NCBI GenBank assembly: GCA_019637975.1
Contig: JAHBUR010000015.1
Coordinates: 1 to 64,000, forward strand
Reading direction: 5' to 3'
Length of the DNA stretch: 64,000 bases
DNA from: Bacteroidota bacterium
GTDB taxonomy: Bacteria > Bacteroidota > Ignavibacteria > UBA10030 > UBA6906
The position numbers and the translations under genes are program-made. Shown one piece after another: positions 7,664 through 36,321 of this stretch (positions within the stretch are counted from its first letter, which is position 1; every line of letters begins with the position of its first letter). The notes below the pieces were generated by a model, which was not told where the DNA came from, ran no database searches, and saw only the letters and a program-made list of their open reading frames with translations.

Positions 7664-7668
7664 CTTCC

Positions 7669-8399: not shown

Positions 8400-8429
8400 T
8401 TGCCTGTGAATCCAAAGCGTGTTAGCAGA

Positions 8430-9917: not shown

Positions 9918-9971
9918 TTTTCCGACCCTCGACCTTGATGGCTGAATTCAATTTGAACCTTGGAGGAACAA

Positions 9972-11177: not shown

Positions 11178-12951
11178 TCCCACATATCTTGGAACAGTCA
11201 TTAACGTCAGCAGCAACGCTGTTGAGGTTGAGATCTCCACTGAGATTCCATCTACGGCTCCGATCATCTCAGGACGAGTCCATCGAATAGGACAACTTGG
11301 GACTCTAGTTAAACTCCCTATTGGCCATTTGACATTGTATGGGATAGTCAGCTCGGTCAGCAACTCACCAGTCTCGGCCGGACCCGTTATCGTTGGCCCG
11401 GACACAGGTCGACGATTCATTCAAGTTCAACTCCTTGGAGAACAACTTGGGGGAGAGAAGTTCATCAAGGGTGTGGGAACGTATCCTACGATAAACGACG
11501 AAGTACACTTAGTCACTGAAAACGATCTCAAGCTGGTGTACGGCGGCTGGGAAGACGGTTATGTTGAGATCGGCAAACACTCTTCTTCTTCCCATCTACC
11601 CGTTTTTGTCGACTTGAAGAATCTCGTTCTTCGGCACACAGCAGTGCTTGGTTCGACTGGCAGTGGGAAATCTAACGCTACCGCTGGCCTTGTGAAATCA
11701 ATCCTCAGAGACTATAGAGGATCCAGAATAATTCTCGTTGACCCCCACGGCGAATATGCCACAGCCTTCAGCGATAGTGCAAACGTTTTTCGTATTGATG
11801 ATGAAGAGAATCCACTATACATTCCCTTTTGGGCAATGACTTTCGATGAGCTCGCGTTCTTTTTAGTTGGGCGTAAGCCCGGTGAAGAAAAACCGGAGGA
11901 CAAGAGACTACGCGAACAAATTCTTGACCTTAAAAAGGCCAACGCGTCGAAGCTAACGGCAGGGGTTGTTGACCAAAACCTAATCACATCTGATTCTCCT
12001 GTCCCGTTTGACATCAGGCAAATGTGGTACACGTTTGACCGTGAAGTAAACGCCACATACAACAATGCCAGTCAACAAGATCAGACAACAGAAGCACTGA
12101 GAGAAGAAGGGAATGCATTAGAGTTAAAGCGAGCGACGTTTGAGCCATATTCCATTGGTGCAGCGGCTCCATTCAAGTCCAAGAATCAGACTATGTATCC
12201 GTACATAGGCAAGATCTACTCTCGACTTCGAGATTCACGGTTTGATTTTATGTTTCACCCTGGCGATTATTATGATGGCACGAAACAGGACATTGATTCT
12301 CTACTAAAGGGATGGATCGACAGTGAAAGACGACTGACGATTCTCGACTTGAGTGGTGTGCCTTTTGAACTCATCGACATCTCAGTTGGACTGATAACAA
12401 GGATGGTCTTTGATAGTATGTACTGGGGAAGATATGAAGCATATACTGGTAAAGGAAGGCCCCTGCTCATGGTGTTCGAGGAGGCTCATTCCTATTTGCC
12501 AAAGACAGAATCTGCTTCTCATGTCTCCGGCTTTGCAAGAAAAGCTGTGGAGAAGGTCTTCAAAGAGGGACGGAAGTTCGGTGTCGGAGCTATGATCGTT
12601 AGCCAACGACCGTCTGAAGTGTCTGATACTATTCTATCACAAGTTGGAACATTTGTCGCTCTTAGGCTCACTAACAGTACAGACAAAGCTCAGGTTCAGG
12701 CCGCTTCTCCGAACAACTTAACAAGTTTGATGGAGCTCTTGCCCTCCTTGAGGATTGGTGAAGCAATTGTAGTGGGAGAAGGAATTCAAATACCTACTCG
12801 AGTGAGAATCGCCTTGGTTACTCCGAGGCCGGATAGCAACGATCCGGATGTCGTTGGCAGTTGGAAGAAAAACTTTGAGCAGAAGGAAGACCATTACAAG
12901 CGGATAGTTACCGACTGGAGAGAGCAGAAAAAACCAACAAGGAACAAATGA
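11167..12951 (+). CDS. herA: HerA-type hexameric ATPase
   Basis: 594 residues. The N-terminal 130 residues form the HAS-barrel. The Walker A motif GSTGSGKSNATAGL is near 161-174, and the Walker B LLMVFEEAHSYLP is near 433-445. The later line MIVSQRPSEVSDTILSQVG is typical of HerA/VirB4-like DNA translocases. In the SIR2-HerA system HerA forms a hexamer that docks with the SIR2 partner to control NAD+ loss. In archaea HerA instead works with NurA and Mre11-Rad50. Both a SIR2 gene and a Mre11/Rad50-like pair flank it here, so its true partner set is open. It ends one base before the KTSC gene. Confidence 0.9.
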   Translation: MQIDPTYLGTVINVSSNAVEVEISTEIPSTAPIISGRVHRIGQLGTLVKLPIGHLTLYGIVSSVSNSPVSAGPVIVGPDTGRRFIQVQLLGEQLGGEKFIKGVGTYPTINDEVHLVTENDLKLVYGGWEDGYVEIGKHSSSSHLPVFVDLKNLVLRHTAVLGSTGSGKSNATAGLVKSILRDYRGSRIILVDPHGEYATAFSDSANVFRIDDEENPLYIPFWAMTFDELAFFLVGRKPGEEKPEDKRLREQILDLKKANASKLTAGVVDQNLITSDSPVPFDIRQMWYTFDREVNATYNNASQQDQTTEALREEGNALELKRATFEPYSIGAAAPFKSKNQTMYPYIGKIYSRLRDSRFDFMFHPGDYYDGTKQDIDSLLKGWIDSERRLTILDLSGVPFELIDISVGLITRMVFDSMYWGRYEAYTGKGRPLLMVFEEAHSYLPKTESASHVSGFARKAVEKVFKEGRKFGVGAMIVSQRPSEVSDTILSQVGTFVALRLTNSTDKAQVQAASPNNLTSLMELLPSLRIGEAIVVGEGIQIPTRVRIALVTPRPDSNDPDVVGSWKKNFEQKEDHYKRIVTDWREQKKPTRNK

Positions 12952-12952
12952 A

Positions 12953-13165
12953 ATGGAACGCATTGGCGTTGATTCATCACATATTTCGGCCGTTGGATAT
13001 GACTCGGACAATGGAACTCTCGAGATACAGTTCAAGAATGGCACAGTCTATCAATATTTCGACGTTCCCTCTTACGAGTACGATGGTCTCATGGCGGCTG
13101 AATCCAAGGGTGAGTACGCAAATCAGAACATATACAAACGATACCGATTCAACCGCATCGCCTGA
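12953..13165 (+). CDS. KTSC domain small protein
   Basis: A 70-residue protein. The whole length fits the KTSC domain: VDSSHISAVGYDSDNGTLEI, then FKNGTVYQYFDVP and AAESKGEYANQNI. KTSC domains are found alone or fused to lysyl-tRNA synthetase and enzymes of phage and defence loci; their biochemical role is unknown. It sits one base after herA and 20 bases before the Mre11-like gene, so it belongs to the same transcript. It could be a small accessory or nucleic-acid-binding subunit; nothing in the sequence proves this. Confidence 0.75.
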   Translation: MERIGVDSSHISAVGYDSDNGTLEIQFKNGTVYQYFDVPSYEYDGLMAAESKGEYANQNIYKRYRFNRIA

Positions 13166-13184
13166 AAGGTTGCCAGGGAACTAA

Positions 13185-14312
13185 ATGATATTCCTCCACA
13201 CCGCCGATCTCCAAATCGGCATGACCGCTTCGAGTGTAGGCAAGCTCGCCAAACAACTCCAGGAAGCCCGGGTTGAATCACTCCGGACAATTCTGCGTCT
13301 TGGCTTGGAGAAACAAGTCAACTTCGTGGTGATCGCCGGTGATATGTTTGAGACCAACCAGGTCTCAAAGAAGTACATCCATCGAGTTGCCCGTGTTCTC
13401 GAAGAGGCAAGGCCGTTGCGGGTTTTCATCTTGCCTGGCAATCACGATTACTTTGGTCCGAACTCTGTGTATCAAACTGAGGAGTTCTCAAAGCTAAGTC
13501 AGCACATCACCATTTTCAGGGAACGCAAACCCTCCGTTGTTCCAGACCTTGACCTCACGTTGTATCCAAGTCCATGCTTCGAAACACGCTCCAACGAATC
13601 GCCGGCAAAATGGGTCAGCAAACAACCGGGTACAAAGTATCATGTCGCTATCCTGCATGGCTCGATTCCATCAGTCATCGGTCGCACCTCTGAAGAAGAC
13701 GAGTACTTCCCGATGTCGGCCGATGAGTTGAAGAATCTCGGGATGGACTACATCGCCCTCGGCCATTGGCATTCGCTTTATCCTGATCCCACAACAACCC
13801 CTGATTCTCCATTCTACTATTCGGGAACGCCTGAGCCAACTGGGTTTGGCGAGCGGATGAGTGGGCATGCTATCCTCGTGGAGTTGTCGGAAAAAGGGAG
13901 ACAGGTCACGGCCTTTCCAACGGCACAACACGGGTATGTCGATGTTGACATCGAAGTGAAAACCGTTCAAGACATCGAAGCTGTCAGAACAAAGTTGGCC
14001 GGGCTGCGAAAGCCAGAGATGATACTTTTGAGGTTGCAACCTAAAGGAGTTGTCTCGATTGCAGTCCGGGAAGCCCTCGATACATTGGTTGCCGATTTTC
14101 AATCCAGAGTGGCGTACATTCGCTGCGAGGACAAAGGCCTGATGCTTGAACCCGACGAGACAGACCTGAATCAATTCACCAGGAGTGGTATTGCGGCAAC
14201 CTCCTTCTCTCTTTTGAAGAAGGAGCGAGACCAGGCATCGCCTTCTGATCGACCAAAGTACGAGCGTGCAATTGCCCTTGCCTACAAGGCCTTCAAAGGA
14301 ACTCTTGACTGA
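13185..14312 (+). CDS. Mre11/SbcD-like DNA repair metallophosphoesterase
   Basis: 375 residues with the calcineurin-like phosphoesterase motifs in order: LHTADLQIG (4-12), VIAGDMFE (about 53), LPGNHDYFG (about 84), ILHGSIP (about 162) and ALGHWHSLY (about 191). The usual DxH of the first motif is D-L-Q here, so one metal ligand is glutamine rather than histidine. The partner gene for a Rad50-like ATPase starts at the last base of this one, so the two are co-translated. Mre11-type enzymes cut DNA ends, hairpins and single strands with Mn2+. The pair resembles the YhaO/YhaN branch as well as SbcCD. Confidence 0.85.
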   Translation: MIFLHTADLQIGMTASSVGKLAKQLQEARVESLRTILRLGLEKQVNFVVIAGDMFETNQVSKKYIHRVARVLEEARPLRVFILPGNHDYFGPNSVYQTEEFSKLSQHITIFRERKPSVVPDLDLTLYPSPCFETRSNESPAKWVSKQPGTKYHVAILHGSIPSVIGRTSEEDEYFPMSADELKNLGMDYIALGHWHSLYPDPTTTPDSPFYYSGTPEPTGFGERMSGHAILVELSEKGRQVTAFPTAQHGYVDVDIEVKTVQDIEAVRTKLAGLRKPEMILLRLQPKGVVSIAVREALDTLVADFQSRVAYIRCEDKGLMLEPDETDLNQFTRSGIAATSFSLLKKERDQASPSDRPKYERAIALAYKAFKGTLD

Positions 14313-16726
14313 TGTATCTGAAGAGCGTCTCCATAAGGAACTTCAAGACTATCCTGAACCTGGACATTGACTTCAGTGAAGGGCTGAATGTGATCTTTGG
14401 GTTAAATGAAGCGGGCAAGTCAACGTTTCTCGAAGCGCTGACTGCTGTCTTCTTTATAAATGCGGACTCTGCCAGCCGTGATGTTGGCAAATTCCGGCCA
14501 TGGGGAACAGAGGCTGACCCTTATGTCGAAGTCAAGTTTCTTGCAGGTGGAAACGAATACAAACTTGAGAAGGAATTCCTGGGTTCACGTCGTGCCCGAC
14601 TATCCTGTTCTGCAATCCGTCTCGACTCGACCAACAAAGATAAGATCAATGAAGAACTGGCGAAGCTTCTTCCTCTTGGAGTAGGGAGCGAGGATGCACA
14701 CAAGCGGACATTCTGGATTGCCCAACGAGAACTGGAAGACACGATAGAGTTGCTTCATGCAGAAGCTGATATCCGTACGGCCCTGCAAAGTACGATCATG
14801 AAAGCCGATGGGGATATCGAAGCGATCAAAACTTCCATTGAAGTAAGAAGGAAAGCAATTGGAGTTGGATGGGGACGTCCTGCGACATATCCTGGTCCTC
14901 TTGAGCTTTCCCGAAGGGAGGCTGAGCGACTTGAAGCAGAGGCAAAAGAACTGAGAACCAGACTCACCTCGCTCGATACTGACATCCAGCGGCACAAGCA
15001 TCTCACGGTGCAAGCGTCCACATTGGAAAACGAAATCAAAGAGGATGGGGATGTTCTCGCTGCAATCGAGAAGTACAACGCCGCAAGAAAACTGAAGGAA
15101 TCCACTGATGCAGCTCTTGATACGATTCAGGAAGAGATCGATTCCCACCAACACGACGAAGCCAGACTATTGGCCCTGCGGAAGACGATTGCCGACCTGG
15201 TAGAGCGACAAGGAATACTCGATAGGCTGCTGACAAAAGCTCAATCGGCTGAAGAAGTGAATCGTCTGAGATCTCAATTGCAGGAAGACGATGCGCTTCT
15301 TGAAACCATCACCAACCTGGAAACAAAGATTGGTTTGTTGCAGCAAAAACAAGCAGCCGAGCAGCTGGTCCCGAAGGCTGATGTTGATAATGCCCGTGCC
15401 CTTGAAAAGTCGATCGCAACCAAGCAAGCGGAACTCAGAGCGGCACAGCTTTCTGTGGAGGCAAAGGGCCTTCGGGACGTGCAGCTCAACATCGCTGAGG
15501 ACACGGCGCCCGAGCATACAGAGGCACTCAAAAAGGATGAGACCAAAGAATTCCGGGCAAATGAGAGAATAAGTCTAACCCTTCCGGATGCAATACAATT
15601 GATGATCACCTCCGGCGTGACAAGTGCTGTAACCCTTCATAAAGAATTGCAGGAATCAGAAAGCTCATTGAACGATCTCCTCACCCGACATACAGCAGTG
15701 TCCGCAACGCAGCTTGCTGAAAAACATGAGGCGCAACGAAAGCTTCAATCCGACGTGAATGCCCTTCAGACTGAAAAGCGTGGAGCTCTTCGAGGCAGAA
15801 CAAAGGAGGACGTCCAGAACTCAGTGACCTCTCTGAGAAAGGAAGTTCAAGAGAAAGGTGCACAGGATCGAGGCTCTACATCCCGTGAGCCCGTTGATGA
15901 TCTTCGTCGTCAAAGGGACCAGGTTGTTGTGGATGTTGCAGCGGCGCGTGCGGAGGTCGTTCAGCTTGACTCAAATGCAAAGAGATTCATCGAACGGCAT
16001 GGCTCTGTGGAAGCCGCCCACCAAAAGAGAAAAGAGATTGCCCGTGAAGCAAGCAAGGCAGAGGCTGCTTTTGAGGAGACGCCGAAAATGGAGTTATCCG
16101 ACGACCAAGTATTCTTGAAAAAACAGCGACTCGAAAAGAACAAAGCATCTCTTGATAAAGCGAGAGCAGACTTGCTCAGACTCTCCGGGGCTTTGCAGGC
16201 GACCTCAGTCTCGTCAGACGCAGTGCGTCTTAAGGAAGCAGAACTGCAAGAGACGAGAGCCGCGTACCAAACCAACCTGCTTGAATATGAAGCATATCAA
16301 ATTCTCGAGAAGACTCTTGAGAAAGCGGAGATCGAGGTTTCCCGGCACCTGAGCGAGCCCATAAAAAACATTCTGTCAGTGACGCTCCCACGTCTAACGT
16401 CGGGTCGATATTCACAGGTGAACTTGGATGACACGCTTGAGGTCCAATCCATCAGGTACAACGCCCTCGACGTTGATCCGGCTGATCTTAGCACAGGAGC
16501 AAAAGGCCAGCTCGCGCTCGCGCTAAGACTCGCATTGGTTGATCATCTCTCAGGCAAAGAACGACAAATGATCGTGCTCGACGATGCGTTGGTGAACTTC
16601 GATGGTGATCGTCTTGCGGAGGCAAAGCGGCTGTTTGTGGAGGTCGCGGCCCGTCATCAGATCCTTTATCTTACCTGTCATTCTGAGACTGCAGATATAC
16701 CCGGGTCAGTTCTCCACCATCTCTGA
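14312..16726 (+). CDS. Rad50/SbcC-like SMC-type ATPase
   Basis: 804 residues. The N-terminal line IRNFKTILNLDIDF leads into Walker A FGLNEAGKSTF (about 28-38). A long coiled coil fills about 180-670. The ABC signature LSTGAKGQLALALRLAL (about 726) and Walker B MIVLDDALVNFD (about 753) close the head. Only one cysteine is seen in the whole protein and no CxxC, so the zinc hook of true Rad50 is missing, as in the YhaN group. It should form the ATP-driven clamp of the upstream Mre11-like nuclease. It is the last gene of the 15.8 kb + strand run. Confidence 0.86.
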   Translation: MYLKSVSIRNFKTILNLDIDFSEGLNVIFGLNEAGKSTFLEALTAVFFINADSASRDVGKFRPWGTEADPYVEVKFLAGGNEYKLEKEFLGSRRARLSCSAIRLDSTNKDKINEELAKLLPLGVGSEDAHKRTFWIAQRELEDTIELLHAEADIRTALQSTIMKADGDIEAIKTSIEVRRKAIGVGWGRPATYPGPLELSRREAERLEAEAKELRTRLTSLDTDIQRHKHLTVQASTLENEIKEDGDVLAAIEKYNAARKLKESTDAALDTIQEEIDSHQHDEARLLALRKTIADLVERQGILDRLLTKAQSAEEVNRLRSQLQEDDALLETITNLETKIGLLQQKQAAEQLVPKADVDNARALEKSIATKQAELRAAQLSVEAKGLRDVQLNIAEDTAPEHTEALKKDETKEFRANERISLTLPDAIQLMITSGVTSAVTLHKELQESESSLNDLLTRHTAVSATQLAEKHEAQRKLQSDVNALQTEKRGALRGRTKEDVQNSVTSLRKEVQEKGAQDRGSTSREPVDDLRRQRDQVVVDVAAARAEVVQLDSNAKRFIERHGSVEAAHQKRKEIAREASKAEAAFEETPKMELSDDQVFLKKQRLEKNKASLDKARADLLRLSGALQATSVSSDAVRLKEAELQETRAAYQTNLLEYEAYQILEKTLEKAEIEVSRHLSEPIKNILSVTLPRLTSGRYSQVNLDDTLEVQSIRYNALDVDPADLSTGAKGQLALALRLALVDHLSGKERQMIVLDDALVNFDGDRLAEAKRLFVEVAARHQILYLTCHSETADIPGSVLHHL

Positions 16727-21466: not shown

Positions 21467-21662
21467 CGAAATCGACGGCGGGGTGCGGCGGGAAGATTCA
21501 ATCGAAGGGTTTCAATTTCGGTGCAGATGCAGTCAGTCAGAATTTCGGACACTCTTTTGCGCACCGAAATTGGCGGCGAAAGCACTGGCGATTGAATCGT
21601 GCCTTTCGATTTCGGCGTCGTTTCTTTCCCGCCGCTTTCTTTGGACGAGCAAAGAAAGCGGC
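21467..21662 (+). repeat. structured nested-stem repeat, copy 1
   Basis: Outer stem CGAAATCGA (21467) with TCGATTTCG (21606). Middle stem GATTCAATCG (21495) with CGATTGAATC (21589). Inner stem CAATTTCGGTGC (21513) with GCACCGAAATTG (21561). Separate downstream hairpin GCCGCTTTCTTT (21631) with AAAGAAAGCGGC (21651). This is the first of seven copies with the same architecture. Confidence 0.85.
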
Positions 21663-21671
21663 GCACAGCTT

Positions 21672-21791
21672 GTTATCAATAACCCCATTTGTCACAATCC
21701 GGTTATCAGCAAATGATACCCATTTCCGCCCCCTATAAGGAAATATTTTTCGAGAGCTGCGTGAAAACCATTTTGCATAATCCAGTTATCA
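21672..21791 (+). promoter_or_regulatory. GTTATCA motifs around the recombinase-like gene start
   Basis: GTTATCAATAAC (21672-21683) is nearly palindromic. AATCCGGTTATCA (21696-21708) and AATCCAGTTATCA (21779-21791) are direct repeats differing at one base; the second lies inside the coding frame if ATG 21713 is used. They could be binding sites for the recombinase-like protein or a repressor. Confidence 0.35.
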
Positions 21792-22729
21792 AATCCGAAG
21801 ACGTACACGACAGTGCAGCCACCGCACATGTCCTCCCGCTCGAAGGATCCATTTCGGGAAGCGAAGCGCCCGTCTGCCAAGATGCAACCCATGAGGCGGG
21901 CGGGAGGGACGCGGTTATCTGCGACGATCAGCTCCTTGTGATGTTCCTCGAATCCCTTCAGGCAAATACGGCATCCGCCAATACCGTCCGTGCTTATGGT
22001 GCAGACATCCGGCGGTTCATGGACTTCACCGCTCTGCGTGGACGCAGAGAGCTTGTCGATCTTCAGTCTTCGGATATCAACCTTTTTCTCAGGCAACTTA
22101 CACTCGAAGACGCTTCAGCTTCAACCGTTCGGCGGACAAGGGCCGCGCTGAAGAAGTTCTTCCGCTTTCACCTGGAGAACGGAACAATCGCCTCGAATCC
22201 CTTTGAAGGGGCACTGCTGGAAGAGGCATTGAGCGACCGGCTCACACTCTCCTCGATTATCAGCATGGCCCTGTATCTTCAACGTCGATCGGCGTCGGAG
22301 GGCAATGGGGGAGCCCTCCGGTACCGGCGGGACGAACTCATCCTGTTGCTGATGCTCATCTATGGCATCCGGCAGTATCATGTGCCCGGACTGAAACTCT
22401 CGGCAATGAAAAAGGAGGGCCGTTCGGTCCTGCTTGCCGTCTCGGAAGAATGTTCTCTGAGACTCGAAGGCATAGTCCTGACGAAGTTCTATCACTACCT
22501 CAGACACCGTGACTCAAAATCCGATATCATCTTCGTTGAGCCCGACACTGGCAAACCGGTCGCAGCACGAACCCTGCATTCATTGATGATCGAGTTGTCA
22601 TATGCCGTCCGTGTGCAGGTCAACCCGAGAACGCTGCACCACACGTTCCTGCACCTCCATCGCGACCCGGGCGACGCCTCCCAACTCCTCCACAACCTCG
22701 CCCAACTCGAGGAGGAGAATTATCAATGA
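21713..22729 (+). CDS. tyrosine-recombinase-like protein with altered catalytic site
   Basis: About 338 residues from ATG 21713; the first 75 are poorly conserved and the real start may be later. The SAM-like core-binding domain is clear: LESLQANTASANTVRAYGAD, then STVRRTRAALKKFFRFHLEN. In the catalytic domain the box I arginine is kept (LIYGIRQYHVPGLKL). The box II motif HxLRH reads RTLHHTF, so both H and R are replaced. The GKG.K line is absent, LGH reads LHN, and the last residues NYQ may hold the tyrosine. It probably cannot recombine DNA in the usual way. The start codon of the next gene overlaps the stop (ATGA). Confidence 0.7.
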   Translation: MIPISAPYKEIFFESCVKTILHNPVIKSEDVHDSAATAHVLPLEGSISGSEAPVCQDATHEAGGRDAVICDDQLLVMFLESLQANTASANTVRAYGADIRRFMDFTALRGRRELVDLQSSDINLFLRQLTLEDASASTVRRTRAALKKFFRFHLENGTIASNPFEGALLEEALSDRLTLSSIISMALYLQRRSASEGNGGALRYRRDELILLLMLIYGIRQYHVPGLKLSAMKKEGRSVLLAVSEECSLRLEGIVLTKFYHYLRHRDSKSDIIFVEPDTGKPVAARTLHSLMIELSYAVRVQVNPRTLHHTFLHLHRDPGDASQLLHNLAQLEEENYQ

Positions 22730-23337
22730 ATCCGCGATGTGCGAAATCGTCGGCAGTGTGGAACGGAAAGATTCAATCGAAGGGGTTCAATTTCGGTGCA
22801 TTTCAAAAATCCTGTCGAATATTATCTACTGCTTCCGCACCGAAATTGATGGCCAAGGCGTTGGCGATTGAATCGTGCGCTACGATTTCGCAGGTTCTCT
22901 TTGGTACTTTCTCTTTGAAGAGAAAGTACGAACAAGAACCGAGCCCCGCCTTTGCAGCAATCCGGGCTCAGGGTTCTTTGTTCGCGATTGCAGTTCTTCT
23001 CAGTTCGTGTTCCCTTCCTTCACAAACAGACCTCCTCGTCAGCAGCCTGCGCTGTGCGCCCAGTGCCTTCGACTCCTTCCGTACGAACACGGAGATCCGC
23101 TACACCCTGGCGAAGCCCGCAACCGTCAGCATCTACATTGCCAGGCGTGATGCAACCGGACAACTGGTTCTCGTCAACACGTTAGCGCGGAACATCTATG
23201 AAACTAAAGGTTCGCACGGACACACCTGGCTTGGCGACACTGCCGCCGGCGTCTTCGCGGAAAGTGGCCTCTACATCGCAATCTTGGAAATCGAAAACTC
23301 ACGCTATGAAACTACCGTCCGCATCTTCCATTTCTAG
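22726..23337 (+). CDS. FlgD-Ig-like lipoprotein, possible N-terminal repeat readthrough
   Basis: The frame is open from ATG 22726 (overlapping the recombinase-like stop) through structured repeat copy 2 to 23337, 203 codons. The recognisable protein starts later: SLFAIAVLLSSCSLPSQ is a lipoprotein signal with lipobox LSSC. The domain that follows (TEIRYTLAKPATVSIYI, then HTWLGDTAAGVFAESGLYIA) matches the FlgD-type Ig fold seen in Bacteroidota surface proteins. TTG 22978 or ATC 22960 are alternative starts that exclude the repeat. Which start is used decides whether the first 68 residues are repeat-encoded. It is probably a small outer-membrane or periplasmic lipoprotein. Confidence 0.55.
   Translation: MNPRCAKSSAVWNGKIQSKGFNFGAFQKSCRILSTASAPKLMAKALAIESCATISQVLFGTFSLKRKYEQEPSPAFAAIRAQGSLFAIAVLLSSCSLPSQTDLLVSSLRCAPSAFDSFRTNTEIRYTLAKPATVSIYIARRDATGQLVLVNTLARNIYETKGSHGHTWLGDTAAGVFAESGLYIAILEIENSRYETTVRIFHF
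22741..22929 (+). repeat. structured nested-stem repeat, copy 2
   Basis: Begins 12 bases after the recombinase-like stop. Outer GCGAAATCGT (22741) with ACGATTTCGC (22882). Middle GATTCAATCG (22770) with CGATTGAATC (22865). Inner CAATTTCGGTGC (22788) with GCACCGAAATTG (22837). Hairpin GTACTTTCTCTT (22904) with AAGAGAAAGTAC (22918). The frame of the lipoprotein gene passes through it without a stop. Confidence 0.88.
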
Positions 23338-23375
23338 AACCGTCGACTCACTGCCCGTCGAGAGCAGTCCAGATT

Positions 23376-23570
23376 TTCGAAATCGGCCGCCATCGCGCAG
23401 GAAAGATTCACTCGAAGCGTTTCAATTTCGGTGCAAATACTCTTCGTCGGAACGTTCCACAAAACCGCACGCACCGAAATTGGCGGCCTCTGGGCTGGCG
23501 AGTGAATCGTGCGTTCCGATTTCGAAGGGAGTTTCTTTGGTTCTTTCTTTGCTCCCGTCAAAGAAAGAAC
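23376..23570 (+). repeat. structured nested-stem repeat, copy 3
   Basis: Begins 38 bases after the lipoprotein stop. Outer TTCGAAATCGG (23376) with CCGATTTCGAA (23516). Middle GATTCACTCG (23405) with CGAGTGAATC (23499), a paired A-to-C and T-to-G change relative to copies 1 and 2. Inner CAATTTCGGTGC (23423) with GCACCGAAATTG (23471). Hairpin GTTCTTTCTTTG (23540) with CAAAGAAAGAAC (23559). Confidence 0.88.
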
Positions 23571-23669
23571 ACACCACTAAGTTGACCGCAGATGTTCTCT
23601 TTCTCGCTAAACGTAGTAGTTGCTTTCATAATTCACTCAACGATCCACAATCCAAACAGGAGGTACACC

Positions 23670-24500
23670 ATGCACACCCCACAACCCTTGCGGCCCCTTC
23701 TTTCCTTCGTCAGGAAGAGCCCGCTCATACCGGTTTTCACGCTGGCTGTTGCTGCCGTAATCTACGGCTGCTTCAAATCGCAGCCCGTGGAGCCGACCAC
23801 CGCGCTGAATCCCGGTTCATTTGAATCGACCGGCGAGGATTTTCTCATCAATGCACTTGATGAGATTCATTCCATTGCCGAATGGGCGCAGGCAGTCCCG
23901 CCGCGGAGTCCGAAGTTGCCACCGCGTGAACGCAAAGTGTTGTTGTCAAAGGCTTCAGGCGACAGCGTCTATGTGTACGGACAAATCACCGCGGACGGGT
24001 TTGGCGCAGTCGTCACCGAACGTCACGCGTACCCCAAAGGACTCCTGCTGATTACCGTGCGGAAGTCGCACGGCGGAAACGGCGGCCGGATCGTCACGGA
24101 AACCAAGCGCTTCATCACGTTCGAGAATTTCCAGAACGACATCCCGTCGCAATCCAATCTCACCGAGGTCTACACGATTGCTGACACGATTGTTACACGT
24201 GTTCTCCGCAATGGACTTCTGGAAACCTACACCTTCCGGCTCCCGGTTGTGACTCGGACCGTGAATGCCGTAACGGGTGCCGTGACAGTCACGCGTCGGT
24301 TTGGCGCCGACGGCTCCATTGTCTCCGAACGAAGGGATGGCACCGGCGCACTCATTCAAACCGCACGCAGTAGCGGACTCGTCGATGGCAGCCTTCTGAC
24401 ACGCACGGAATACCCGGACAGTACCTGGCGTAGCGTTCGCACACTTGGTCAGGCCGATGGCTCGATTCTCCGTGAGATTACCTCAGGGCGTGGACTATGA
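23670..24500 (+). CDS. secreted lipoprotein of unknown function
   Basis: 276 residues from ATG 23670, chosen for its ribosome site (AGGAGG, 23658-23663). An N-terminal signal ending VAAVIYGCFKSQ gives a lipobox, so it is a predicted lipoprotein. The C-terminal half contains short turn-rich units (TGAVTVTRRFGADGSIVSER, GTGALIQTARSSGLVDGSLL) that suggest a beta-rich, repeat-like fold. No family is recognised. The next gene overlaps by four bases (ATGA), so it is co-translated with a TolC-like protein. Together they suggest an envelope role for this part of the element. Confidence 0.7.
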   Translation: MHTPQPLRPLLSFVRKSPLIPVFTLAVAAVIYGCFKSQPVEPTTALNPGSFESTGEDFLINALDEIHSIAEWAQAVPPRSPKLPPRERKVLLSKASGDSVYVYGQITADGFGAVVTERHAYPKGLLLITVRKSHGGNGGRIVTETKRFITFENFQNDIPSQSNLTEVYTIADTIVTRVLRNGLLETYTFRLPVVTRTVNAVTGAVTVTRRFGADGSIVSERRDGTGALIQTARSSGLVDGSLLTRTEYPDSTWRSVRTLGQADGSILREITSGRGL

Positions 24501-25621
24501 CATACGCTCAGGGGTTCAACGTGCTCGCCGGATGTTGCAGGAGCAAGGCGGGCAGGTGGGTTGCCATTGTTCTGGTATTCGTCCTCCCGGACCAATGCGC
24601 CGTTGGACAAACCGTCCCCGACTTCCAGGATGAGTTGGGGGCGGACCCTGAGCAACTGATCGTCGATCGTCATAGTTATCCACAGATCAAAGCAACAACA
24701 TTCCATAGTCCCGAAATCGTCGGCCAACAAGGCTATCTCTCCCCGGATGAGCGGAGGGATTCCAGACGTGATTTGAAATTTCGGTCGCTTCAACCCGGCA
24801 TCACTATAGAAAGCCGAAATTTCCCTTCTTCATCCGTCGGCGTATTACCAGGGAAAGCATTACGATTTCGGGACACGTTTTCCGGTATCTATCAAGAATT
24901 CTGTCGTACGGGATCCCGCTCCGCGGGACTTTCGTCCATTTCTTTCGTAAAGAAATGGACAACTGGCAATACGTCTGTGCAACAATCGTCACGAACTGAA
25001 TCAGGCAATGTGCAATTGGATGCGAAACCGATCACAGATTCACTCAGCAGGGTGGAGCAGGGGAAAGACATTGTCTTTTCAGTTTCGCGCACAGACTCTC
25101 TCACCCTTCAACTACTTGACATTGAAATCGCACAAGCGGAACTCGAGGCAGCCGCGACCGACTTCTGGCACAGACTCATCCCCGATATTCGGGTCTCTGC
25201 GAACTTCGGTGTCCAGCAACTTGCCTTCGTCGATCCGACAACCTTTACGCCCTACAAGCTGCCAAAGGATTCGTACCGGCTCACCCTTTCACTCTCGTTG
25301 AGTGATATCTGGAATTCGAAACAACACGAGCAAGCACTCCTTGTCCTCGACAGGCTCCGGATCAAGAAGAGGGAGTTGGAGCAGAAACTCGATACAGACA
25401 AACACCGGCTGCTTCGCCATCGTGCAGCGTTGCAGAAAGAACTGGATTTCAGGCTTGAGGAGTTGAGCCTTTTGCAGCAAAGCCTCAAGTACACACAATT
25501 ACTCTTCGAAGAGGGCAAAGCGGACTTCAATGCCCTTGTCAGAGCAAAACGACAGGTTTTAAACGTTGAGAAATCCATCTCAATGACCAGGACACGGCAA
25601 GCAGGTGCAGAGACTGAATAG
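24497..25621 (+). CDS. TolC-like outer membrane protein carrying an in-frame structured repeat
   Basis: 374 codons. An N-terminal signal (VAIVLVFVLPDQCAVGQ) is followed by a short linker, then residues about 71-155 are encoded by structured repeat copy 4, read in frame without a stop. After it comes one OEP/TolC-type repeat: helix SLTLQLLDIEIAQAELEAAA, strands (IPDIRVSANFGV, YRLTLSLSLSDIW) and a long helix pair (KKRELEQKLDTDKHRLLRHR, LLFEEGKADFNALVRAKRQV). Typical TolC proteins have two such repeats and about 420-480 residues, so this is a half-size or damaged member. It overlaps the upstream lipoprotein gene (ATGA). Whether the repeat-encoded insert is tolerated is unknown. Confidence 0.6.
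   Translation: MTYAQGFNVLAGCCRSKAGRWVAIVLVFVLPDQCAVGQTVPDFQDELGADPEQLIVDRHSYPQIKATTFHSPEIVGQQGYLSPDERRDSRRDLKFRSLQPGITIESRNFPSSSVGVLPGKALRFRDTFSGIYQEFCRTGSRSAGLSSISFVKKWTTGNTSVQQSSRTESGNVQLDAKPITDSLSRVEQGKDIVFSVSRTDSLTLQLLDIEIAQAELEAAATDFWHRLIPDIRVSANFGVQQLAFVDPTTFTPYKLPKDSYRLTLSLSLSDIWNSKQHEQALLVLDRLRIKKRELEQKLDTDKHRLLRHRAALQKELDFRLEELSLLQQSLKYTQLLFEEGKADFNALVRAKRQVLNVEKSISMTRTRQAGAETE
24709..24960 (+). repeat. structured nested-stem repeat, copy 4 (inside the TolC-like gene)
   Basis: Outer TCCCGAAATCGT (24709) with ACGATTTCGGGA (24862), 12 perfect pairs. Middle CGGATGA (24744) with TCATCCG (24830). Inner GAAATTTCGG (24775) with CCGAAATTTC (24814). An extra small hairpin CCCGC/GCGGG sits at 24915-24927. 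Final hairpin GTCCATTTCTTT (24934) with AAAGAAATGGAC (24949). It is the longest copy and is read through in frame. Confidence 0.85.
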
Positions 25622-25648
25622 CACAGGTCTGACCAAAAACCACGCATT

Positions 25649-25817
25649 GCGAAATCGGCGGCTGTGTGCGGTGGAAGCGATGGTGAGGGTTTATGATTTC
25701 GGAGTACGAGATTTCCGACTTGCACCGAAATCATGCGGCAAGCGGTTGGGTGCCATCGCCGCGTTTCAATTCCGGAAGGATTTCTTTACCTCCTTTCTTT
25801 CTCGGAAAGAAAGGAGG
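25649..25817 (+). repeat. structured nested-stem repeat, copy 5
   Basis: Begins 28 bases after the TolC-like stop. Middle GCGATGG (25677) with CCATCGC (25753). Inner ATGATTTCGG (25693) with CCGAAATCAT (25725). The outer stem is decayed (GCGAAATCGGCGGC at 25649 against GCCGCGTTTC at 25758). Hairpin CCTCCTTTCTTTC (25789) with GAAAGAAAGGAGG (25805), 13 pairs. Confidence 0.8.
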
Positions 25818-25894
25818 AGGAGGCACTGTCCATCAAAGTATCACGATGTCTCGCGAGACCGGCTGGAAGCCAAGCTGCGATGTTAATCAGTGTC

Positions 25895-26072
25895 CCGGAA
25901 ATCGTTGGCGGGTGGGTCGGCAATCCAAACGAGCTTTGGAATTTCGGTCGCTTTACGGGGAGTCTCACGCGCAAGCCGAAATTCCGTACTTGATCAGCTT
26001 GTTCGATCCCGGCTGCAGCGTTACGATTTCCGGAAGTTCTTTTTGGTTCTTTTTCTTCCAAAGAAAAAGAAC
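25895..26072 (+). repeat. structured nested-stem repeat, copy 6
   Basis: Only 77 bases after copy 5, with no gene between. Outer CCGGAAATCGT (25895) with ACGATTTCCGG (26023). Middle AACGAGCT (25928) with AGCTTGTT (25996), including one G-T pair. Inner GGAATTTCGG (25938) with CCGAAATTCC (25976). Hairpin GTTCTTTTTCTT (26046) with AAGAAAAAGAAC (26061). Confidence 0.85.
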
Positions 26073-26111
26073 ATAACTAATCGCCGTCTATGACTCTCGA
26101 CTAATCATCAC

Positions 26112-27533
26112 GTGATCAATGGCGCTACGCAAATCATCGGTAACATCCCCGGACAATATCTCAATCCCTTGCTTGTTGCGGAATCGCAATCGGCGGAGCA
26201 TTCCGGGTTCATTGTTGTCACGTACAATCGCGATCCTAAACACTACGACCTGTTGTTTCTCAATGGTCGTGCAATCACCCATTGTGCGCGCATGAACAAA
26301 GACCTTCGCTTTTTCATCGACCAGCAGGTTGTCACGTCAACATTTCGTGACCATCACAAGGAGAGTTGTGTCTCGCTCTTTACGTGCGACAGTGAGACCG
26401 TCAGACGGTTTATTGCCACGTTCCATTCCGAGCCCTGTCTGAAGGTTCATGTGGATACACTCTCGAAGCCGCAGATTCTCGCCTTGGTCAAATCCACGGG
26501 GTGCACGCAGGGCATTATCGAGCGGAATGATTTCTCTGACATGCTGCCCGCCATCGAGCTGTATGACATCCATGCGCCCGGGAGATTGCCGGCGTTCAAA
26601 GCGGGCATGTCACACGGACGACTCCTTGTCTACGATCTCCTCAAGAACGAGGAAATCCAATCACACAAATTCAGCGGCCGGTCCCTTATTGTGGCTCCGG
26701 CAAGTAAGCAAAAGAGGAGAAGGAGGTCTCAGAAGAATCCGCACACCGAACATGAATTCTCAGGCGGCCACATGGCACAAACTACAGGTGCACTACAGGA
26801 AAATCCTGCCGAAGCTGTTGAGGCCCTCATCCACGAAATCCTCGGCACGTCAGACCAGCCACCACCATCAATCAGCGATCAACAGGTTCCAGTCTCCGGT
26901 CTCCCGTCCCCCGTCGTCACCGAACACTCAACCTCAACCTCATCCTCATCCTCATCCTCATCCTCATCCTCATCCTCATCCTCATCCTCATCCTCATCCT
27001 CATCCTTATCCTTAACCTCTCAGGCCAACACCGATGAACCAATCAACTCACAAGAATCAACGGACAACGATGATCCATCCCAATCGCAGTCACGCGAAAC
27101 TCATGCAAACGAACAGTCGCCAAAACAAGAGGTTCTGTCTCCCGAGGAGATCAAAGAAACCAAACAGACTTTGCAGACTGATTCCACAGATTTCACCCGT
27201 GTTCTCGAGCGCCTTCTCCGCTCATTCCGGCAACAGGTCGTTGACCTTGCGCCCCAGCGTGCCGAATCCATCTTCGCGCAGGCGGAAAAGAAGATCAGGG
27301 TCTTAAATCCCGAGCTTGATATCCGTTCGCTCGATGATACCAACGCCATCACAGTTCTCGATCTCATCGAAGAGATGGTTAAACAAGCGCCTCTGCTCAA
27401 ACGGTCAAAGCTCCGGGAAACAGCATCAGACCTTGTTTCCAATCTCTACAACAAACACTACGAACTTCTCGAGCACAACGGGGCCGTCGATGCTGTCGAG
27501 CAATGTTACTACCGACTTAAAGGTTCAAAGTGA
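26112..27533 (+). CDS. hypothetical protein with poly-serine linker
   Basis: 473 codons from GTG 26112; the exact start is uncertain. The N-terminal 200 residues form one folded-looking domain (FIVVTYNRDPKHYDLLFLNG, then SGRSLIV) without a family I recognise. A basic patch KQKRRRRSQK follows. A run of about 24 serines is encoded by the hexamer tract at 26927-27019. The C-terminal 110 residues are helical (FTRVLERLLRSFRQQVVDLA to the end). Two domains joined by a low-complexity linker would suit a nucleic-acid-binding or scaffold role in the element, but this is only a guess. It is preceded by structured repeat copy 6 and followed by copy 7. Confidence 0.6.
   Translation: MINGATQIIGNIPGQYLNPLLVAESQSAEHSGFIVVTYNRDPKHYDLLFLNGRAITHCARMNKDLRFFIDQQVVTSTFRDHHKESCVSLFTCDSETVRRFIATFHSEPCLKVHVDTLSKPQILALVKSTGCTQGIIERNDFSDMLPAIELYDIHAPGRLPAFKAGMSHGRLLVYDLLKNEEIQSHKFSGRSLIVAPASKQKRRRRSQKNPHTEHEFSGGHMAQTTGALQENPAEAVEALIHEILGTSDQPPPSISDQQVPVSGLPSPVVTEHSTSTSSSSSSSSSSSSSSSSSSSSSSLSLTSQANTDEPINSQESTDNDDPSQSQSRETHANEQSPKQEVLSPEEIKETKQTLQTDSTDFTRVLERLLRSFRQQVVDLAPQRAESIFAQAEKKIRVLNPELDIRSLDDTNAITVLDLIEEMVKQAPLLKRSKLRETASDLVSNLYNKHYELLEHNGAVDAVEQCYYRLKGSK
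26927..27019 (+). repeat. hexamer tract T2, (TCATCC)n microsatellite
   Basis: About fifteen six-base units, mostly TCATCC, with TCAACC at the left end and TTATCC/TTAACC at the right end. It encodes the poly-serine linker of the 26112-27533 gene, so unit changes keep the frame. Immediately left lies the pyrimidine-rich unit CAGTCTCCGGTCTCCCGTC. Confidence 0.9.
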
Positions 27534-27615
27534 TGATGTACTATTCCATTGTCGGTCTGTTGCGGAATTTGGGGTGCCTGGACTCAGCAGTACTCATACC
27601 GCTGTTGCATTGTTT

Positions 27616-27777
27616 TGTGAAATCGGTGGCTGCGTGCGAAAGGGGCGATTGTGTGGGTTTACGATTTCAGTTGCTTTGCTTTTTAACTGAAATCGTAGGG
27701 TATGTGCGGGGGAAACAATCGCTGCGTTCCGATTTCACATGTTCTTTTTGGTACTTTTTCTTCCAAAGAAAAAGTAC
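27616..27777 (+). repeat. structured nested-stem repeat, copy 7
   Basis: Outer TGTGAAATCGG (27616) with CCGATTTCACA (27729). Middle GCGATTGT (27645) with ACAATCGC (27715). Inner TACGATTTCAGTT (27660) with AACTGAAATCGTA (27685), 13 perfect pairs with a 12-base loop. Hairpin GTACTTTTTCTT (27751) with AAGAAAAAGTAC (27766). The cleanest copy of the family. Confidence 0.9.
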
Positions 27778-29737: not shown

Positions 29738-29752
29738 CTGAAAGCTCCTGAA

Positions 29753-30687: not shown

Positions 30688-32355
30688 ATGATTGCCCCCA
30701 CCCACATCACCTTTGCCGAGTTCCTCTACCTGTTGATCCTTACAACAACCGGGGTAGCCCTTTCTCCCATAAACGCTATCGTTGTCGGTATTGCATCGCT
30801 ATTGCCGGATGTTGATACACAAGCGAGCACCGTCGGCAAACTGATCCCCTTCATTTCCAAACGGATCGAACGCCGCTTCGGTCACCGGACTCTGACACAC
30901 TCCGTCATGTTCATTGTATCTCTGGCAATCGTTTTCTCACCCCTTCTCATCCTGAACCTGGACCTGAACCTCGACCTTTACCTTTGTTTCCTCATTGGCT
31001 ACGCATCCCATCCCTTTCTCGATACCATGACCGTCAACGGTGTAAAACTCTTCTACCCCTTTTCAAACGTCAAGTGCGTTTTCCCGTTCGAAGTAAACCA
31101 GCCACATCGCTACCGCGTGCAAACAGGATCGAAGGTGGACAAGACTCTGGCCTTCTTCTTCCTCATCGGCTGCATCCCGACGTTCCTGATTGCCCATCAG
31201 GGCTACGAGCGTTTCGTGCGCTTCACACAACGCAGTATCGGATCGGCAGTACGGGATTACAACGAGTTGTCAAAAACCCATGCCGTTGTTGCCGATATCA
31301 CTGCGCATGATCTGCTGACGAAGCAGAAGTTGACGGGCAGATTCGAAATTGTTGGGGCGCTGAACGACCATACGCTTTTGTTCAAGACAAACGATAACAA
31401 GTTGCACACTGTCGGAAAAGAGTATCAAGCAGAATACGTCGCGGAGAATATCCTTTGTTACAAAGGGAGTCCCGTGACAACGGCAATCCGTAGCGTGGAT
31501 ATGGCTAACCACACACTTGGATTGCTCGCGAACTACTTCAACCCCGACGATGAGGTTCTCTTCTTTGGAACGCTTCGCACCCGAGACAAGGTTGCGCTTC
31601 CTCCCGATCCTGATGGGGGCGACCGAGAATTCTCTCCAGTGAAGGGAAGCAGCTCTCACCTTGCATTCAACTATGCCTCGATGAACGACATTACACGACT
31701 CGGACTTGAGAACGTCCTCATTGAGCAGGGAACACTGATTGCCCGATCGGTAGTCCGTGTAACCAATGCCGATGTGATGTGGCTGCACCTCCATTCCCCC
31801 TACGCGGAGGTATCATTCGTTGCAACGCCAGACCAGAATATTACGCTCCAGGCACGTGTTGGCGACACAGTGGATGTCAACGATGTGATAGCCACGCTCG
31901 CCCTCACAACACCAATTGAAGCGCAGATTCAGCTCCATCGGAATCAAATCAACGCGTTGAAAGCAGAACTCAGTCACAAACTCGATGAATTGCAGGCAAA
32001 GATCGAAAAGAAGAGGTCTGAGTTTCGCAGAGACTCGATGGGTACACTTCGGCAACGGGAACTTCAAAAGAGAGGCTTTTCCGCGCAAGGAGGGAACATG
32101 CAATCGCATCGCTCGTCAACGGATCTTCGCGTACTCGTCAATTCTCAAACAATTCTTCGCGAGAAGTACGATCTGAAAATCCAGAAACACAACACCGACA
32201 TTCTTCGACTGCAGGCAAAACAGAAAACATCATTGCAGGGCGATGCGCTTCTCCGCTCCACAGCTTCGGGCATCATCACCGAGATCCGCCAAACGAGCGA
32301 AGGAACAAAGCGCCGCACAACATTCATCATCCGCCGATTGGGGAAAGTACAATGA
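30688..32355 (+). CDS. YdjM-type membrane metal-dependent hydrolase fused to a HlyD-like region
   Basis: 555 residues. The N-terminal 200 match the YdjM/LexA-binding membrane hydrolase family: ASLLPDVDTQASTVGKLIPF, then RRFGHRTLTHSVMF and IGYASHPFLDTMT, with histidines and aspartates in the expected places. At least four membrane helices are seen. The C-terminal part is different: ARVGDTVDVNDVIATL (about 392) and RSTASGIITEIRQT (about 530) resemble the two halves of a lipoyl/HlyD barrel-sandwich, separated by a coiled-coil hairpin (ALKAELSHKLDELQAKIEKK and following). Such a fusion is unusual. It starts at the end of hexamer tract T5. Confidence 0.68.
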   Translation: MIAPTHITFAEFLYLLILTTTGVALSPINAIVVGIASLLPDVDTQASTVGKLIPFISKRIERRFGHRTLTHSVMFIVSLAIVFSPLLILNLDLNLDLYLCFLIGYASHPFLDTMTVNGVKLFYPFSNVKCVFPFEVNQPHRYRVQTGSKVDKTLAFFFLIGCIPTFLIAHQGYERFVRFTQRSIGSAVRDYNELSKTHAVVADITAHDLLTKQKLTGRFEIVGALNDHTLLFKTNDNKLHTVGKEYQAEYVAENILCYKGSPVTTAIRSVDMANHTLGLLANYFNPDDEVLFFGTLRTRDKVALPPDPDGGDREFSPVKGSSSHLAFNYASMNDITRLGLENVLIEQGTLIARSVVRVTNADVMWLHLHSPYAEVSFVATPDQNITLQARVGDTVDVNDVIATLALTTPIEAQIQLHRNQINALKAELSHKLDELQAKIEKKRSEFRRDSMGTLRQRELQKRGFSAQGGNMQSHRSSTDLRVLVNSQTILREKYDLKIQKHNTDILRLQAKQKTSLQGDALLRSTASGIITEIRQTSEGTKRRTTFIIRRLGKVQ

Positions 32356-32379: not shown

Positions 32380-32416
32380 GTTCTTTTTGGTTCTATTTCT
32401 TCCGGAAAAGAAGAAC
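32380..32416 (+). repeat. relic of the structured repeat (terminal hairpin only)
   Basis: GTTCTTTTTGGTTCTATTTC then TTCC/GGAA and AAGAAGAAC resembles the terminal hairpin and duplicated arm of copies 6 and 7, 24 bases after the preceding stop. The three nested stems are missing, and the hairpin has mismatches. Confidence 0.65.
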
Positions 32417-32476
32417 AGCAGGAATGCTTCACTTGGCTATTGATCGCTCGATGCTGACTAAGCAGGACTTCTCAGG

Positions 32477-34577: not shown

Positions 34578-36281
34578 ATGAATATTGCTGTTGGTTACGT
34601 CAGATGCTCGACTGATATGCAGGAGGATTCAGTTGAACAGCAGAAGCGTGAAATTCAGAAGTGGGCCGATGCGAACCAGCACCACATAATCGAATGGTAC
34701 GAGGATGAGGGCAAGAGTGGCATGTCCTTCGAAGGCAGGCCCGCAATCCAGAGACTGCTTCGAACCGTTGAGACGAACCCTCAGTTCAATACCATCCTTG
34801 TCTACGATGAATCACGTTGGGGAAGGCCAGACAATCCGCGGGAAAACACGTATTGGAAGTTTCATACTGAGCGGTTTGGCGTCAAAGTTCGTGTCATAAA
34901 CAGCAGCTCGCGACATGAGAACGACATCGCCAGCTTCGTCACGGAGGTTGTTGAAAGCGCCGAGGCGTCTGAGTATTCCAAGAAACTCGCTCGTGCGACA
35001 TTGCGAGGTGCTCTTGCCAATGCGTCGAAAGGCTTTTCCTCAGGTGGAACTGCACCGTACGGATATGTCCGCGTTGCTGTCAGGAAAGATACAGGCAAAG
35101 TTCTTCGTGAACTGCCTACCGGCGAATGGCTCCGCAGCAACATGGAAAAGGTCTCGTGGGCATTAGGCGACCCCCTTGAAGTGGCAACCGTGAAACGCAT
35201 TTTTGAAATGAAAGCGTCAGGTCTCGGTTATGTCTCGATCGCTCATCAGCTGAATCAAGAAGGGGTACCCTGCCCCAAAAGAGGACGTTGGAGGACCAAA
35301 GATCAGAAGTGGTCCCAGGGAACTATTCGTACGATCATAGTGAACCGGGGATATTCTGGCGTGCGCATCTACAATGTCCACCCAAAAGCCCGATTGAAAA
35401 AGGGAGCAGCTCGAAAGCCATGGACAAATGATCCGAAAGAGTGGGTGACAGTAGAGCAAGCGCATCCTGCAATAATCTCCAAGGATTTGTTTGAGCGGGC
35501 AAATGTGACGAACCGCGAGAACTTTGGCAAAGGCAACCCGCACCAAGTCAAGAGTCCTTATCTTCTCTCCGGTCTGATTCGGTGCGACCATTGCGGTTTC
35601 AACTTCTCTGGACACACATATTCAGCCCGCAAGCGACACTACTACCAGGATAGCGGCTTCATCAACAAAGGTCGATCCGTTTGCACATCATTCCTGATTC
35701 CTAAGGAGAGAATCGAGAACTTTGTCATCAGCAGTATCAAGGAGAACCTCTTGAGTTCCGGTGTTGAGGCACAACTGCGTACCGTGATCGAGCGTCAACT
35801 ACAGAAACGTCATAGTGGTGAGGATTTCAGCCTTCGGAGAATCGAAGCGGCAATTGTGAACAACGAAGTTCAGACACGCAACTTGGTCGACGCCATCGCT
35901 CAAGGGATTCGAGTTGATACTGTCTTGTCACGCGTGAAGGAACTGGAGACCGAGCGGAAGCGGCTGCTAAAAGAAAAGACAAGATTGGAAAGTGTGGAAG
36001 TCAAGTCAAAGGACATCAGGGATCTTGCACAAAGCATCGCGGAAGAAACAAAGCGATTCGATGAAGTCCTAAGAACTTCACCTATTCATGTGCAGAAGCA
36101 GTGGATACGTCGGTTTGTCTTGGGAATAGTAGTGGAGAGAGACAAAAACAGAGCAGTCTGCCACATCACGAGGATTCCCATGACCTCACATCCAATCATG
36201 AAAACCCTCATTTCACCAAACTTATCTATCGTGAGTGTGCCCGGAACAGGACTTGAACCTGCACGACCTTGCGGCCACTAG
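34578..36281 (+). CDS. large serine recombinase (integrase)
   Basis: 567 residues. The resolvase domain starts VGYVRCSTDMQEDSVEQQKR with the catalytic serine near 11, and continues with VYDESRWGR (arginines near 76-79). The recombinase domain (APYGYVRVAV, KRIFEMKASGLGYVSIAHQL) and a zinc-ribbon (CDHCGFNFSGHTYSARKRHY, then CTSF) follow, with a coiled coil near 440-490. All key parts are present. The last 15 codons (from VPGTGLEPARPCGH back) are antisense sequence of the tRNA-Leu gene, so the coding end was created at the insertion point. This is the probable integrase of the element. Confidence 0.9.
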   Translation: MNIAVGYVRCSTDMQEDSVEQQKREIQKWADANQHHIIEWYEDEGKSGMSFEGRPAIQRLLRTVETNPQFNTILVYDESRWGRPDNPRENTYWKFHTERFGVKVRVINSSSRHENDIASFVTEVVESAEASEYSKKLARATLRGALANASKGFSSGGTAPYGYVRVAVRKDTGKVLRELPTGEWLRSNMEKVSWALGDPLEVATVKRIFEMKASGLGYVSIAHQLNQEGVPCPKRGRWRTKDQKWSQGTIRTIIVNRGYSGVRIYNVHPKARLKKGAARKPWTNDPKEWVTVEQAHPAIISKDLFERANVTNRENFGKGNPHQVKSPYLLSGLIRCDHCGFNFSGHTYSARKRHYYQDSGFINKGRSVCTSFLIPKERIENFVISSIKENLLSSGVEAQLRTVIERQLQKRHSGEDFSLRRIEAAIVNNEVQTRNLVDAIAQGIRVDTVLSRVKELETERKRLLKEKTRLESVEVKSKDIRDLAQSIAEETKRFDEVLRTSPIHVQKQWIRRFVLGIVVERDKNRAVCHITRIPMTSHPIMKTLISPNLSIVSVPGTGLEPARPCGH

Positions 36282-36321
36282 CTCCTGAAGCTAGCGCGTC
36301 TGCCAGTTTCGCCATCCGGGC
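36238..36321 (-). tRNA. tRNA-Leu (anticodon CAG), likely attachment site
   Basis: Acceptor stem GCCCGGA (36321-36315) pairs with TCCGGGC (36245-36239). The anticodon stem CTAGC/GCTAG encloses the loop TTCAGGA, giving CAG. A long variable arm and the T-loop GGTTCAAGTCC are present, and CCA is not encoded. The 3' end faces the mobile region and overlaps the last 44 bases of the serine recombinase gene, so the element is integrated at the tRNA 3' half. Confidence 0.92.

Follow-up and report, generated by a model that had tools for sequence, protein, structure and literature searches.

What keeps the fold of a repeat intact when its sequence changes from copy to copy, and is such a fold maintained as RNA or as DNA? 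This question is raised by seven repeats, here named W1–W7, in the window, that is, the whole 64,000-nt stretch of DNA that was analysed (contig JAHBUR010000015.1 of assembly GCA_019637975.1, positions 1–64,000). The initial annotation described them as three nested stems (P1–P3) followed by a 3′ hairpin, and all seven are present at the reported positions with the quoted stem sequences (Table 1). The genome that contains the window is denoted G000 and its other contigs C2, C4, C18 and C28; the relatives compared with it are G002, G029 and G365. The family consists of real, structured and mobile repeats and is wider than first reported.

Table 1. Copies of the repeat family and associated features in the window.
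Feature	Position	Strand	Description
W1	21467..21663	+	P1 21467-21474/21607-21614; P2 21495-21504/21589-21598; P3 21513-21524/21561-21572
W1 3′ module	21616-21663	+	S1 CGTC 21616-21619 with loop GACG 21644-21647; tract TTTCTTT 21621-21627; hairpin 21630-21643/21650-21663
W2	22742..22930	+	Nested P1-P3; asymmetric tract TTCTCTTT, mirror match to purine arm AAGAGAAA; hairpin 22904-22915/22918-22929
W3	23377..23570	+	Nested stems; S1 GGGAG with loop CTCCC; hairpin 23540-23551/23559-23570
W4	24711..24960	+	Worn; in frame within ORF 24497-25621; long GC-hairpin linker, then hairpin 24934-24945/24949-24960
W5	25649..25817	+	Nested stems, P1 broken; hairpin 25789-25801/25805-25817
W6	25896..26072	+	P3 strong, P2 weak; S1 GGAAG/CTTCC; tract TTCTTTTT; hairpin 26046-26057/26061-26072
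W7	27617..27777	+	P1-P3; tract TTCTTTTT; hairpin 27751-27762/27766-27777; orthologue at G002:C49:4359-4480
Outer membrane efflux (OEP) gene	24497..25621	+	W4 in N-terminal linker, ~83 codons read through
Solitary decayed T-rich hairpin and tract	32380..32418	+	Without nested stems; just 3′ of gene 30688-32355; identified by eye

The surroundings of the copies contain several other features. The region 912–16726 is dense in defence-like genes (TerB, BrxC/D ATPase, DEAD helicase, SMODS nucleotidyltransferase, Cas4-like/RNase H nuclease, SIR2 and HerA, and metallophosphatase with SMC-like ATPase). At 34578–36321, the end of a serine recombinase gene overlaps a tRNA gene on the opposite strand (36238–36321), possibly the attachment end of an integrated island. 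The ORF between W1 and W2 (21689–22729) is tyrosine recombinase-like; the match covers just its N-terminal SAM-like domain, and no catalytic domain was recognised. A CTCATC hexanucleotide array (26927–27015) lies within the ORF 26112–27533 and is missing from the G002 orthologue; CTTAACC runs near 29750 resemble this array. Within the efflux gene, one reading frame across W4 is free of stops.

The nested-stem design is beyond chance. All seven copies fold to lower energies than dinucleotide-shuffled sequences, with z-scores of −4.2, −5.8, −4.6, −4.4, −2.9, −4.3 and −4.4 for W1–W7, respectively. The description of the stems as perfect or nearly so in each copy was somewhat generous: W4, W5 and W6 are worn, with a broken outer stem in W5 and a weak middle stem in W4 and W6, and the minimum-energy fold of W2 and W5 differs from the nested one. 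The covariance model R1, for which seven copies served as the seed, matches 104 copies in the fetched relatives. Both sides have changed in 25 of the 30 pairs in a 45-copy alignment (218 two-sided cells, compared with 58 ± 6 in shuffles) and in 29 of the 30 in the 104-copy alignment (586 cells vs 149 ± 9), whereas slid structures collapse in both, to at most 78 cells in the latter; these counts are inflated by the fitting of the alignment to the structure and come from copies that are related to one another. For each of the stems GATTCAATCG, GATTCACTCG, GAATCACTCG and GCGATTGT, its own complement can be read directly. P1 (GAAATCG/CGATTTC) is almost invariant and P2 and P3 covary, the changes leading from one Watson–Crick pair to another with few intermediates; the linkers are conserved as well, for example, AAGGGTTT from P2 to P3 and GTGCGTTA from P2′ to P1′. 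Other palindromes (e.g. TCCGTTCCGACGAAGTCGGAACGAGATCTCGTTCCCAAAGGGAACGGA, or those with GGGATCCC cores) are repeatedly inserted, one palindrome nested within another, just 5′ of P1′ or in the hairpin loop, as seen at the loci L009 (4050–4098), L011 (2707–2755), L193, L195, L197 and L198. As anticipated in the initial annotation, there is no catalogued match: a search of the 64 kb window against Rfam 15 detected no family at the gathering threshold, with two tRNAs as the sole matches.

The copies had been thought to be confined to the mobile region and to share one orientation; the former turned out to be wrong, and the latter applies inside the window but not elsewhere in the genome. Depending on the threshold and filters, R1 finds 11–13 copies in G000, and those outside the window are located on C18, on C4 and on C28, where four copies form a cluster with members on both strands; a degenerate copy lies on C2. 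Across the order, 22 of the 98 genomes are positive, with a patchy distribution and no more than 20 copies each; a strict pattern scan of named genomes, with a pattern that was too strict, yielded CHB1 as the sole match. An integron attC origin, considered for the array-like layout, was dropped, given that the copies cluster without genes and on both strands; for the attC, retron and omega-RNA layouts considered, neither an integrase cassette arrangement nor a link to an RT or to TnpB was seen.

The 3′ part of the element (hereafter, the T-module) holds more than the 12–13 bp hairpin initially described, which is present but is accompanied by a conserved preceding tract and a loop pairing that had been missed. 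A pyrimidine tract, TTTCTTT in most copies, usually lies 5′ of the hairpin. In asymmetric hairpin cores, this tract mirrors the pyrimidine arm and is parallel-complementary to the purine arm, that is, Hoogsteen-compatible (for example, TTCTCTTT for AAGAGAAA in W2, TTCTTTTT for AAGAAAAA in W7, TTTCTT for AAAGAA at locus L208 and TTTTCTTT for AAAAGAAA at locus L222). Among the asymmetric cores with a full tract (a looser mirror matching had been ambiguous for the symmetric TTTCTTT), 13 are mirror-only, 3 are compatible with both arrangements and none is direct-only; slipped Watson–Crick pairing would require the direct arrangement. Where the loop has at least 6 nt, the 3–6 nt located 5′ of the tract (S1) pair with it in most copies (GGGAG/CTCCC in W3, CGTC/GACG in W1, AAGGG/CCCTT in G002, CGTGC/GCACG at L208 and CTTGAT/ATCAAG in Ilyobacter). 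The summed complementarity between S1 and the loop is 138, compared with 83.7 ± 6.7 when the loops are exchanged, and none of the 5000 shuffles reaches this value. These parts are ordered as in a triple-helix H-type pseudoknot. On this comparative evidence, the T-module appears to be a covarying intrastrand triplex, often an H-type pseudoknot. The module is not universal: S1 is missing from the short-loop copies, and a GC-hairpin linker replaces both the tract and S1 in W4, C18, most of the C28 copies and the + strand copies of G029. The module does not have the makeup of an intrinsic terminator: the arms are T/A-rich rather than GC-rich and no T run follows the 3′ arm.

It is only the T-module that crosses phyla; a plasmid search with a whole copy as the query gave no match. 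The module with TTTCTTTGGTTACTTTCTTTG is represented by 18 exact copies on one Caballeronia replicon, 7 in Ilyobacter polytropus, a single, slightly different one in Paraburkholderia, and also in five viral contigs; the matches to phage records are weak. On the Caballeronia plasmid pNK81, seven head-to-head T-module pairs are found, ~465 bp apart, and a conserved TGCCGCCCCGCACAGGGGCAACGCCAATA stretch follows the T-modules at the Caballeronia loci L114, L116 and L124. In several cases, including Ilyobacter and, by inspection, the viral contig L121, the T-module stands behind nested stems of unrelated sequence. The T-modules of distant phyla could be either homologous or convergent. A tentative extension, which we hold to be somewhat less likely than its opposite, is that the arrangement of three nested stems with a covarying triple-helix pseudoknot on their 3′ side represents an uncatalogued, cross-phylum class of single-stranded nucleic acid elements with a common function and many different mobile-DNA carriers, a class that would take in Chlorobi/Ignavibacteria-type Bacteroidota, Betaproteobacteria, Fusobacteriota and viral contigs. 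No description of the element, by sequence strings of the T-module or by concept, was found in open papers, an absence that is weak evidence given that most subscription journals lie outside this scope.

The initial annotation left RNA and single-stranded DNA as a pair of options, which stands, and the mismatches within the stems bear on the choice. RNA helices normally show a clear excess of G–U pairs, and scoring by the model would, if anything, favour them. In P1–P3 of the 104 copies, with ragged stem ends left out, there are 2495 Watson–Crick, 36 GT and 54 AC cells; given that both mismatches are rare, the nested stems carry no G–U signature of RNA and look to be maintained as DNA. The T-hairpin points the opposite way, with 16 GT vs 3 AC cells, mostly at GTTAC/GTGAC and largely at one position, which fits RNA. 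A structured RNA transcribed from the neighbouring genes, in which the nested stems and the triplex pseudoknot serve as a signal for the 3′ end, for stability, for attenuation or for antitermination and which spreads by hitchhiking on mobile DNA, would account for this excess as well as for the in-place compensation at W7 described below; pseudoknots with a triple helix are known among RNAs (telomerase RNA, SAM-II), and the window copies are all sense to the neighbouring genes, mostly located directly behind one. In crude gene calls, 33 of 48 downstream genes share the strand of the element, and the upstream genes are split evenly, with 24 on its strand and 24 on the opposite one, the latter balance being unexpected of such an RNA, as are the lack of a T run after the hairpin, the folding of head-to-head pairs on opposite strands and the lack of an Rfam match. 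Overall, we consider an RNA origin of the fold unlikely, although deserving of more weight than the other alternatives below, and lean towards DNA.

Movement as DNA is evident in the relatives. In G002, six near-identical copies are embedded in a larger common unit (445, 447 and 529 bp) with the TIR TGTCCAAAATAATC and its complement, and one unit is flanked on both sides by AGCAATCATCA, a target duplication. In G029, a 506 bp unit with the TIR GTAGTGTCTCA and its complement and the target duplication AGAATGCCG carries two distinct folds arranged head to head. Thus, the combination of TIR and target duplication (of 9 or 11 bp) by which MITEs are recognised is found in these two relatives, and since the fold sits in such units, it moves as DNA. 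In G365, the copies usually form head-to-head pairs separated by ~30 nt, and such pairs occur also in G029; the vehicles differ between the relatives, and the fold is common to all. Around the window copies, no TIR or target duplication was recognised in a search that was not exhaustive, and the G002 TIR is missing from G000. Scans for TIRs in the fragmented assemblies yielded short units and solitary ends only, with no full-length parent element recognised, and no transposase was identified.

The orthologous island of G002, which is ~70% identical to that of the window, provides a view of individual sites. W4 is missing from the orthologous efflux gene, and at the W3 site only the terminal T-rich hairpin is retained. 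W7 is found at the same place, with compensating changes in P2 (GCGATTGT/ACAATCGC vs GCGATGC/GCATCGC), in P3 and in the hairpin, where the arms GTACTTTTTCTT and CCACTTTCTCTT each have their own complement. Because the linkers are recognisably the same, this pair looks like change within one site rather than replacement by another copy. Such a change, where something keeps the fold without movement, counts against the mobile-DNA reading.

Paired changes had been taken to point to selection on the folded form; the covarying structure stands but the conclusion is not secure, since a single template-switching event is able to repair the two arms of a DNA palindrome together (PMC8794818) and the mismatches of the nested stems show no G–U excess. 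For the nested stems, this is a serious partial explanation. Taken to the limit, mutation only, whereby the correction of quasi-palindromes by template switching keeps the arms identical and the fold has no function, would agree with the predominance of direct Watson–Crick to Watson–Crick changes and with the insertion of other palindromes inside the stems, in addition to resting on a documented mechanism. The mirror tract, however, covaries without complementarity, which is not readily explained in this manner, and the linkers and the order of P1, P2, P3 and the T-module are kept across genera, as is the T-module across phyla. Arm correction by itself would not easily yield the in-place paired changes at W7 or the covariation of the mirror tract, and we regard mutation without function as improbable.

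A REP/BIME-like nature of the repeats, with mobilisation by a Y1 transposase (TnpA-REP/RAYT), is less probable still. The palindromes, inverted pairs, multiple copies and intergenic spread do resemble REP/BIME and REPINs with TnpA-REP (PMC8266576, PMC2817692), and the genome that contains the window encodes five Y1_Tnp genes. None of these genes is flanked by the element, however, and no Y1_Tnp match was found on the T-module-rich replicons, the ones covered in Caballeronia and Ilyobacter; additionally, unlike REP, the family comprises multi-stem units of 150–250 nt, and the larger units of the relatives are marked by TIRs with target duplications. On C28 (locus L028), a RAYT-type Y1 transposase gene has its own nearby palindrome, AGAACGATTCAATGAATCGTTCT, which is unrelated to the element family.

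The explanation we favour, and consider probable though by no means assured, is that of a dispersed, non-autonomous mobile DNA family with nested palindromic stems and a T-module triplex, the fold of which acts as single-stranded or cruciform DNA. In its favour are the covariation, the rarity of both mismatches in P1–P3, the units with TIRs and target duplications, the mirror tract and the loop pairing, as well as the patchy distribution, the head-to-head pairs, the lack of W4 in the orthologous gene and the lack of an orientation bias of upstream genes. Counted against it, in addition to the W7 pair, are that no TIR or target duplication was recognised around the window copies and no transposase was identified, the GT excess in the T-hairpin and the strand bias of the downstream genes. 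The fold moves as DNA, presumably by means of transposases that other elements provide. With respect to its function, which we infer, it would be active when exposed in single-stranded or cruciform form during replication or transposition. The perfection of the stems may be kept by selection together with arm-to-arm template switching, and the triplex module might be the part that is recognised or the part that stalls the polymerase. The window copies would be older single units that ride in the island and are partly inherited vertically with it.

H-type pseudoknots with a major-groove triple helix are known from telomerase RNA and the SAM-II riboswitch. The order of the parts is the same in the T-module (S1-5′, pyrimidine loop, S2-5′, S1-3′, S2-3′), and its pyrimidine loop likewise suits Hoogsteen pairing with the purine strand of S2; unlike those RNAs, the elements described here are dispersed mobile repeats, with an S2 of 12–13 bp. 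Similarly to MITEs, they are short and non-coding, contain internal palindromes, occasionally insert into ORFs and, in G002 and G029, have TIRs and target duplications, but one fold is shared by units with unrelated TIRs, the internal fold is conserved by covariation, and no TIR was recognised around the window copies. The nearest existing description of the module is a survey of potential intrastrand triplex motifs in bacteria, in which the G/C-rich purine motif TM-ECO was characterised (Holder et al. 2015, PMC4666352). Those elements, treated there and in older studies cited therein, likewise combine two like tracts and one complementary tract per strand, are present in many dispersed copies in many bacteria and are linked to genome instability; compared with TM-ECO, the module here is A/T-rich and pyrimidine, its three tracts covary, and it has a loop-pairing pseudoknot and nested stems upstream. 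On C18, near copies of the family, a ccccctctcc..ggagagggggttgggggtgagg repeat (L009, 8838–8880) resembles TM-ECO.

A description as DNA repeats that carry a covarying triplex module suits the family better than the label of an RNA family. It also serves as a warning that, in palindromes present in many copies, covariation alone does not prove an RNA. Bacterial triplex repeats have so far been mostly lists of patterns; here, the comparative evidence from three tracts and the loop is that of a triple-helix fold that is kept. Natural variants in which all tracts change together, from several phyla, amount to a ready set of mutants, with which the function of such repeats becomes testable.
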